Below, in pieces: positions 29,110 to 32,119 of a stretch of 64,000 bases of DNA. Below the pieces are notes generated by a model that was not told the origin of the DNA, did no database searches, and saw only the letters and a list, made by a program, of their open reading frames with translations. The position numbers were made by a program, and so were the translations under genes. Position 1 is the first letter of the stretch; each line of letters begins with the position of its first letter. Source of the stretch: Verrucomicrobiota bacterium (GTDB lineage: Bacteria; Verrucomicrobiota; Verrucomicrobiia; Limisphaerales; JACPZS01); NCBI GenBank assembly GCA_016195385.1, contig JACPZS010000100.1, forward strand, positions 1 through 64,000. The letters are read 5' to 3'.

Positions 29110-29356
29110 GGCATCACAAATTTTGAAGATTGACTGACTCACTGACATCACTGACCGAATCACGCGTCCATGCTCGCCCACAGGGCAAGCGGAGGGAACG
29201 CGACTGAGATTTCGGCGTCGGTGATTGCATTCGTGCTTTTGTTCGGCGCTAAAGTAGCGCAACCGCGCCGCATTGCAAATTGCCGGAGTCGTGATCGCAG
29301 TTGAACTTTTCCGGAATCATGTAAACAATGCCCGCGTTGCAAATTTCGATTCGCGC

Positions 29357-30598
29357 ATGAAAACAACTGCCTTCTTCGTGAGCATCCTGTTCGCCGGCCT
29401 GCTCTGCGCCGCCGCCAATGAATCAGGATTGATCATCAATCGTCCGGCTACTCCGGCCGCCAAGCCACCGCCGGGCGTCGAGGCCGCGCAGGCGCTTTCG
29501 ACCATCACCGGTGTCGCGATTTCGCCGCTCGCGGGCATGGGCGCCGTCGGCGCCTGGAAATACTTCAAGGCAGCGCCCGAACGCCGAACGCGGCTCGCGT
29601 GGTACGCGCAGCCGTACTTCTGGCTGCCGGCGTTGATCGTTGTCGTGCTGGTCGGGTTGAAAGACATCCTTGGCACCGCCGCGCCGCCGGGTTTGAAAAA
29701 GCCGTTCGATGTGGCCGAAGTTATCGAAAATAAATTGAGCGGACTGGTCGCCGCCGGAGCCTTCGTTCCGCTTGTGGCGTCAATTTTTTCGCGCCACGAC
29801 GACGCGGCCAATTTTGGCGGCAGCGCGCTCGCCGCGTTCGGCCTCCACAACGCAGGGCTGGCGATGATCGATCTACCGGCGGTGGGCAACGTGCTGCTGA
29901 TGCCGTTCGCCATCGCGTCGTTCGGCCTCGTCTGGCTGGTGTCGCACACGATTCACATCCTGATTTTGATCAGCCCGTTCGGAGCGGTGGACGCCGCGCT
30001 GAAAGCATTCCGGACGTTTCTCGTTGGCGCGCTCACCGTGACGTCATTCACGAATCCCTATCTCGGCGCGGTCATGTCGCTGGTCATCATCGCGCTCGCG
30101 TATTTTCTGGCCGGGTGGTCGTTCCGTTGGATGGTTTTTGGCTCCGTGTTTACGTGGGATTTTTTCACCGGCAGCCGGCATCGTTTCGCGCCGACGACGA
30201 ACAACGCCTGGATGTTTTCCGCGCTCAAGTTCGACCAGACGCCCGTGCGCACTTACGGAAAATTGTCGCGCGATGAAGCCGGCCAGCTTCGTTTTCAATA
30301 TCGCCCCTGGCTCGTCGCGCCGCGGCGCAGCGTCGCCCTGCCTGCCGTCGAACCATCAGTCGGGCGCGGTCTGCTCCACTCCGAAATCGTGTCAGCCGAA
30401 CGAGCCGATGCGCCGCAGCGAACGCTGTTCCTCCTCCCGCCGCGCTACCGCAATCACGAAGCCGAACTCGCGAGCCTCTTCGCTTTGGAAGGTGTGTGCG
30501 ACATCGGCCTGCGCAAAGGATTCAAAGCAATCTGGCGCTGGTGCGCCGGAATTTTCGGTGTTCGTCCGAAAGCGCATTCGCTGAGTGCGGGTACGTAA
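29357..30598 (+). CDS. Hypothetical membrane protein
   Basis: MKTTAFFVSILFAGLLCAAANESG signal; multiple TM stretches. Confidence 0.65.
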   Translation: MKTTAFFVSILFAGLLCAAANESGLIINRPATPAAKPPPGVEAAQALSTITGVAISPLAGMGAVGAWKYFKAAPERRTRLAWYAQPYFWLPALIVVVLVGLKDILGTAAPPGLKKPFDVAEVIENKLSGLVAAGAFVPLVASIFSRHDDAANFGGSALAAFGLHNAGLAMIDLPAVGNVLLMPFAIASFGLVWLVSHTIHILILISPFGAVDAALKAFRTFLVGALTVTSFTNPYLGAVMSLVIIALAYFLAGWSFRWMVFGSVFTWDFFTGSRHRFAPTTNNAWMFSALKFDQTPVRTYGKLSRDEAGQLRFQYRPWLVAPRRSVALPAVEPSVGRGLLHSEIVSAERADAPQRTLFLLPPRYRNHEAELASLFALEGVCDIGLRKGFKAIWRWCAGIFGVRPKAHSLSAGT

Positions 30599-30621
30599 TC
30601 TGTTAGGCCGCACTACGCCCT

Positions 30622-30981
30622 GTGCCATATTTCATCATCCTACCAGCCTATGTTGCGCTCCTGCTATTCCTCATCATTGCAGCGGTCGTCACGCGCTGCG
30701 TTGCGAGGTGGCGCGCGGCTAGCGGCTACATCGTTGGCGGCACAGTCGGCACTTTGCCCGGCTTCATCATCGCCAACGTCATCGTTACGCTGGCGGGCAT
30801 CTTGCCTGTCTTGGTCACACAGAAGATTTCACCGCCGCAGTGGTTGCAGCAGGTCGTTGCCATCATCGTCGGGTTCATTCTCATTCTCGGGCCGTTCGTC
30901 GCCTCAGCCATTGGCGTCGTCCTCGGATTCGCAGCCGGGGCGTTCTTTGTCCTCAAGCGACGGAGGAGACGTGCGGCCTAA
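30622..30981 (+). CDS. Cassette 1 ORF: small membrane protein
   Basis: 119 aa, GTG start 20 nt after the start of the R' box; several TM segments; stop codon lies inside the attC R'' box. Confidence 0.65.
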   Translation: MPYFIILPAYVALLLFLIIAAVVTRCVARWRAASGYIVGGTVGTLPGFIIANVIVTLAGILPVLVTQKISPPQWLQQVVAIIVGFILILGPFVASAIGVVLGFAAGAFFVLKRRRRRAA

Positions 30982-31068
30982 CCATGCGCTGCAGCGAACC
31001 CGGCCATCGCGTCCAGGTTGCAAGCGAACGCCCTCGTGGGCCGGGTCGCTGAGCTTGGGTCGTTAGGC
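30976..31068 (+). repeat. attC recombination site
   Basis: R'' GCCTAAC / R' GTTAGGC (7-bp complementary); L'' CAGCGAACCCGGCC / L' GGCCGGGTCGCTG pair over 13 bp with a single bulged A. Confidence 0.85.
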
Positions 31069-31080
31069 GACTTCGCGCGT

Positions 31081-31323
31081 ATGTCAGACACCTCGGATCA
31101 TTTCACTGTGAAGCTTGGCAAGCTAGCGCGGACGATTGATTACGACGACCCACACGGCCATATCCTTTTCACGTTTGACGCTGGATCGAAAGGCAACACG
31201 TCACTCTGTTTGGAGCATCACGCTCCGCAGACTTCGCGCACTCCGCGTTACGCCATCGCCTTTGAGCGCGCGAAGCAGTATTTGGAGTCATGCGGATACG
31301 AGGTTGAGATTTATGGTGAGTAG
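31081..31323 (+). CDS. Cassette 2 ORF: 80-aa hypothetical protein
   Basis: MSDTSDHFTVKLGKLARTIDYDDPHGHILFTFDAGSKGNTSLCLEHH...; begins 19 nt after start of R'. Confidence 0.6.
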   Translation: MSDTSDHFTVKLGKLARTIDYDDPHGHILFTFDAGSKGNTSLCLEHHAPQTSRTPRYAIAFERAKQYLESCGYEVEIYGE

Positions 31324-31335
31324 TCACGACAAGTC

Positions 31336-31429
31336 ACTTAACCATGCGCTGTTACCTAACCCGGCCATCGCGCTCCGGTTGCAAACGAACGCCCTCGTGG
31401 GCAGGGTCGTCGAGCTTGAGTCGTTCGAC
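31336..31429 (+). repeat. Second attC-like site (degenerate)
   Basis: R'' ACTTAAC; core CATGCGCT...CCCGGCCATCGCG..GGTTGCAA.CGAACGCCCTCGTGGGC..GGGTCG shared with attC1; 3' boundary GTTCGAC deviates from GTTRRRY. Confidence 0.65.
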
Positions 31430-31641
31430 CAGGCGCGAAAGCGAGCACGCCTTCAATTTCCGCATCCGCCTGAGCGACTTCCATCAAAAAGCTCGGAGCA
31501 GTTCATTTGAATCGGTCTTGTTCTTTTGTTCGCTTGAATGAGCGCCACTAAAAACACCGCTTTTTTTCTTGCTGCGCGACAACTTTTCGACAAAGCGGTT
31601 GGAACTTGCGGCCCGCCGCAATTTCTAAGAAAGTCGGCGGC

Positions 31642-31902
31642 ATGAACATCGGTTGGATTTACAAGGATGGCGAAGTGATTGAACTTCCGTCGCTCTCGGC
31701 CGTCATCCACAAAGAGGATACCTGGCACGTCTCCACCTGCCCGGAATTGGGCGTGGCCAGTCAAGGCAAGACCCGCAAGGAAGCGTACGCCATGCTGGCG
31801 GAAGCCGTGGAACTCTGGCTGGAAACCGCCAGCTCCAAAGAGATCAAACGCCGGGTAAAATTGGGCGGCAGCGTTCAGCCCCTCAAATTGGCTCATGCCT
31901 AA
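31642..31902 (+). CDS. hicB: HicB-family antitoxin
   Basis: AVIHKEDTWHVSTCPELGVASQGKTRKEAYAMLAEAVELWLE is the HicB fold signature. Confidence 0.85.
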   Translation: MNIGWIYKDGEVIELPSLSAVIHKEDTWHVSTCPELGVASQGKTRKEAYAMLAEAVELWLETASSKEIKRRVKLGGSVQPLKLAHA

Positions 31903-32119
31903 ACTTCGTCCGCTTTCCGCTGCCGAAGTCGGCCGGCTTCTTGGCAAGCATGGCTTTGCGTTCGTGCATCAACGTGGCAGTCATCTCATCTACCGCAGAC
32001 AGTTGCCGGCGGGCGACAGCGCCACCGTTCCCGTTCCCAACCGGCGCGAAATTCCCGTGGGCACGCTCAAATCCATCATCAGCCTGAGTGGCTTGGACGA
32101 AATGTTGTTCCGCAAGTGA
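31895..32119 (+). CDS. hicA: HicA-family toxin
   Basis: LSAAEVGRLLGKHGFAFVHQRGSHLIYRRQ...VPVPNRREIPVGTLKSIISLSGL. Confidence 0.87.
   Translation: MPKLRPLSAAEVGRLLGKHGFAFVHQRGSHLIYRRQLPAGDSATVPVPNRREIPVGTLKSIISLSGLDEMLFRK

Follow-up and report, generated by a model that had tools for sequence, protein, structure and literature searches.

Within the window, the whole 64,000-nt stretch analysed here (contig C161), we identified two integron gene cassettes on the + strand at positions 30602-31429 (Table 1). Each carries a single ORF in the same orientation that ends at or in an attC site, as expected of integron cassettes; the ORFs begin 20 and 19 nt inside cassettes 1 and 2, respectively, and the second ends 12 nt before its R″ box. 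This layout bears out the initial annotation, which had proposed that GTTAGGC at 30602 and 31062 opens two cassettes, each with one short + strand ORF starting about 20 nt inside and ending at or near an attC, the first with its stop codon (TAA within GCCTAAC) inside R″. Approximately 0.2 kb behind the array lies a hicBA-like pair, whose first ORF matches DUF7387 and, weakly, HicB-like families and whose second matches HicA (PF07927) in Pfam; it is possibly a stabiliser of the cassette locus. Between 28900 and 32300, no sigma-70-like promoter was found, and terminator-like sites occurred at near chance level.

Table 1. Features of the cassette locus and its flanks (positions in the window).
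Feature	Position	Strand	Description
Upstream host gene	29354-30598	+	414-aa membrane protein, function unassigned; intact; terminates 4 nt upstream of the insertion point
Left recombination junction G|TTAGGC	30602-30603	+	putative attG-type target G joined to cassette TTAGGC
Gene cassette 1	30602-31061	+	counterpart in another genus (L165/L172, G306), 80% identical and located between other attC sites
Cassette 1 ORF	30622-30981	+	GTG start, 119 aa, about three hydrophobic segments, TAA inside R″
attC1	30976-31068	+	R″ GCCTAAC 30976-30982, R′ GTTAGGC 31062-31068
Gene cassette 2	31062-31425	+	left end GTTAGGCGACTT pairs with its own R″ extension AAGTCACTTAAC, 10/12
Cassette 2 ORF	31081-31323	+	ATG start, 80 aa, function unassigned
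attC2	31336-31429	+	hybrid R′ box GTTCGAC at 31423-31429
Right flank	31424-31641	+	presumed target DNA from TTCGACC onward
hicBA-like toxin-antitoxin pair	31642-32119	+	downstream of array, outside any recognisable cassette

Analysis of the two recombination sites revealed that attC1 combines complementary R″ and R′ boxes (RYYYAAC/GTTRRRY) with paired L″/L′ arms, and that its bottom strand folds into a long imperfect hairpin containing both the R″/R′ and the L″/L′ stems (z -3.4). The two elements, 93 and 94 nt long, are 88% identical over 68 nt. In attC2, R″ reads ACTTAAC, the R′ box (ending exactly at 31429) is degenerate and unpaired with R″, and the whole site adopts no attC-type fold by MFE. 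The covariance model R1, made from the genome's own attCs with both window sites among its seeds, accepts attC1 at 115.6 bits and attC2 at 74.7 bits, the outcome that the initial annotation had proposed to check; the next best score in the window was 14.8 bits, and R1 detected no further attC there. No Rfam 15 family matched the attC at gathering score. The evidence for attC identity is the whole 93-nt folded site rather than the seven-base motif. As a bare 7-mer, GTTAGGC (+ strand, 30602-30608 and 31062-31068; complement GCCTAAC at 30976-30982) was rejected as evidence, being at chance level with 3 matches versus 2.49 expected.

Complementarity also reaches the cassette ends. In cassette 1, the left end (GTTAGGCCGCAC) and R″ (GTGCGGCCTAAC) make up a 12-bp inverted repeat without mismatch, and in the arrays of this genome, left ends pair with their own R″ at 58 of 90 extension bases beyond the 7-nt core (shuffled mean 34.5; 0 of 20000 shuffles as high). 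The terminal R′ box (GTTCGACC / GTTCGACCAGG) matches the complement of the cassette 2 R″ at 5 of 13 positions. The 26 full-length attC copies from the genome aligned well; because RNAalifold alone chose a shifted outer stem, the classical R″/R′ pairing was counted directly. When this pairing was imposed, 91.6% of cells were paired versus 85.5% in shuffles, changes on both sides occurred in 19 cells versus 4.5, and the covariation score was reached by none of 500 shuffles. The L stem has switched as a unit from CCCGGC/GCCGGG to CGGCGG/CCGCCG, with compensatory changes.

A search for the attC core at other loci, which the initial annotation had suggested, recovered the same family throughout this genome: BLAST with attC1 gave 42 matches on many contigs (E down to 6e-42), and R1 gave about 41 sites at E<1e-3. 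Reading contig by contig, we found several other attC arrays, with copies arranged head to tail and some located next to intI. In a sample of 58 genomes from the order (this one and 57 others), 39 have R1 sites, the nearest named match being a Pedosphaera MAG; in the phylum sample, 16 of 195 genomes have them, this one included. An integron integrase above the family cut-off was detected in 19 of the 58 genomes of the order; R1 sites are found in 17 of these 19 versus 22 of the 39 without one (Fisher one-sided p 0.011). In seven genomes (G003, G017, G023, G028, G042, G049 and G055), an R1 site lies ~0.3-2 kb from intI in divergent orientation. In G005, weaker R1 sites are scattered over many contigs, 36 in all and scoring 55 bits at best; no intI there exceeds the family cut-off. 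Among plasmids, the attC matched weakly in a single case, a Nostoc plasmid (77% identity). Contigs classed as viral in IMG/VR (L146, L137, L145, L158 and others) also carry attC arrays of the same family, at up to 102 bits; L158 displays at least seven GC-rich attC-like sites of ~125-130 nt in a regular series.

The same genome encodes an intact integron integrase on contig C183 (L071:5735-6904; TIGR02249, 392 bits, cut-off 265), from which an attC array diverges. The protein aligns over its catalytic domain with the solved integron integrase 2a3v (E 1.4e-80) and possesses a segment of that alignment which we take to be specific to integron integrases. Near the N-terminus, at about residues 80-110 (...PPSPPTPLPRERGA...), it contains an unusual extra stretch resembling a common LTPNPSPQREG-type repeat inserted in frame; because of this insertion, its activity is not certain. 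Two further intI genes were identified, one broken (C231) and one partial (C54). The array had initially been described as integrase-less, which is correct locally, as no integrase adjoins it, and incorrect for the genome.

An attI-like sequence with a hairpin and ...GCTCACYTA..TG stands before the first cassette on C183, C107, C180, C231 and C214. The attI-like regions of C231 and C180 (L072 and L074; G000) are identical over 110 bp and are followed by different cassettes, C180 ending within ~130 bp; the difference probably reflects strain-level variation of first cassettes in a metagenome assembly, or two copies. The C183 array also includes, near L071 2915, one R1-negative site with a different attC core (AACAAAATCGGTCGAGCGAACGGGGATGAGCCG...), so that attC types are mixed within one array.

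A copy of cassette 1 was found in G306, a genome from a different family of the order, on a short contig. The DNA match runs from precisely 30602 to the attC R′ box, with an identity of 0.97 across the first 40 nt of the unit and of 0.30 across 40 nt outside it. Because the match stops at the cassette ends while the flanks differ, there is good evidence for cassette 1 as a discrete mobile unit with boundaries at G|TTRRRY, as opposed to a REP element. G306 likewise has an intI above the cut-off. The ORF of its copy retains the GTG start and the stop inside R″, and the membrane protein of 119 aa is probably under purifying selection, given dN of 0.18 versus dS of 0.57. Homologs of ORF 1 occur in 7 other genomes of the order, and those of ORF 2 in a single other genome among 293 of the order (56% and 42% identity), with no flanking R1 match there. 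Neither cassette ORF matched Pfam, PADLOC or PHROGs.

The host gene preceding the array is conserved, with orthologs in 22 of 57 relatives (46-55% identity), and gave no Pfam match. In 18 of 19 orthologs examined the protein terminates at a similar position, to within about 18 residues, the remaining one having a longer tail. Of 11 relatives that carry this gene, none has any of the window's adjacent genes next to it. At the array itself, neither an attI-like hairpin nor an intI remnant was detected, and the matches listed for C161 include no tyrosine recombinase (PF00589), in keeping with the earlier remark that no tyrosine integrase is visible in the window. Elsewhere in the genome, a single cassette on C200 begins 13 nt after an ORF that we read from its sequence as LacI-like.

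Collectively, these observations make it likely that the two cassettes were inserted outside an integron, at a chromosomal G|TT site, by an IntI encoded elsewhere, and they provide suggestive evidence that the insertion was of the attG type. We favour this reading because the array lacks any attI or intI remnant, starts 4 nt past an intact gene and ends in an unpaired R′ box. A circular cassette, through its folded single-stranded attC, would have been recombined by the C183 IntI into a chromosomal G|TT located 4 nt after the stop codon of the conserved gene, and cassette 2 would have followed in the same way, either in tandem or subsequently. On the left side, this would place the cassette's TTAGGC... 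behind the target's G; on the right side, the target's TT(CGACC...) would come to lie behind the G of the last attC, producing a non-pairing terminal R′ box. GTTCGAC looks like such a hybrid, an attC G followed by target TT..., and is suggestive of insertion at a non-att site more than of integron decay; point-mutation decay could have altered the box instead. Counting against off-target insertion, attC2 in its present form has no attC fold, and the activity of the C183 IntI is uncertain. Because no empty-site relative was found (a contig scan gave only a Pedosphaera MAG, at 51% identity), we infer the insertion step; the predicted empty site is GTAATCTG|TTCGACC, that is, GTAATCTG joined to TTCGACCAGG, and the predicted target site sequence is GTAATCTGTTCGACC. 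With neither attI nor Pc, any expression of the cassette ORFs would depend on read-through from the upstream gene.

The array could alternatively be the remnant of a formerly complete integron whose intI and attI were deleted, which we consider unlikely. The broken and partial integrase genes on C231 and C54 indicate that integron decay does occur in this genome, and the degenerate attC2 fits such a history; however, an intact conserved gene stops 4 nt short of the left end, the array has no attI-like hairpin, and the matches listed for C161 include no tyrosine recombinase. Less probable still is a piece of a larger array carried here by chromosomal rearrangement (inversion or translocation). 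In its favour, the genome does hold several other arrays, and the upstream gene's neighbourhood is unshared in 11 relatives, but the left boundary coincides with the exact IntI cleavage point of a cassette and the right one falls precisely on the GTT of the terminal attC, and breakpoints of a rearrangement are not expected at both. A REP-like or transposon-derived repeat unrelated to cassettes is scarcely credible: the element is palindromic, about 93 nt long and present in about 40 genome copies, but these stand in head-to-tail arrays adjoining intI, pair with left ends across whole cassettes and, with an ORF, form a block in two genera, so that the data contradict it. The possibility of a genome-wide REP family, against which the initial annotation had set its own proposal, thus gives way to the integron's own attC family, seen beside intI on C183 and in several relatives.

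Extending the preferred reading, off-target insertion, to the order as a whole is a tentative step. It is conceivable that IntI in this order routinely seeds cassettes at G|TT sites throughout the chromosome, directly downstream of host genes, that the cassettes borrow host promoters, and that the dispersed attCs constitute a genome-wide reservoir rather than one array.

A CALIN comprises at least two tandem attC sites, with one ORF each and no integrase nearby, in the usage of IntegronFinder. The window locus is alike in all essentials, with two attC sites and no neighbouring integrase, and the earlier label of a CALIN-like array is apt: it is an ordinary but clean CALIN, a known kind, here as a two-cassette case in a genome of the Verrucomicrobiota, a phylum that has received little study. 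The arrangement of a complete integron, intI and attI next to the array, is absent from this locus and present on C183. That integron resembles the sedentary chromosomal integrons of the Vibrio type in having intI divergent from an array of similar attCs, whereas the window locus has neither intI nor attI and the arrays of this genome are short. Integrons in Verrucomicrobiota have already been listed, and among the origins proposed for CALINs is off-target insertion by an IntI located elsewhere (PMC8618304). The shortest motif for IntI is GNT, which can be extended to GTTRRRY (PMC10127599), and attG sites have been described in work cited by PMC12444791 and PMC12901181.

This genome offers a natural Verrucomicrobiota case with an intact IntI, many scattered attCs of the same family and cassettes just behind host genes, and hence a setting in the wild for studying the origin of CALINs and the expression of cassettes that lack Pc. 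A close parallel is the attG insertion of integron cassettes that Loot and colleagues (Loot et al. 2024, Nat Microbiol 9:228-240) reportedly obtained experimentally in E. coli. In each case cassettes occupy a chromosomal site that carries a GTT triplet and is neither attI nor attC; the two differ in that the E. coli insertions were produced by experiment, whereas the event at the window locus, in another phylum, is deduced from its junctions alone.
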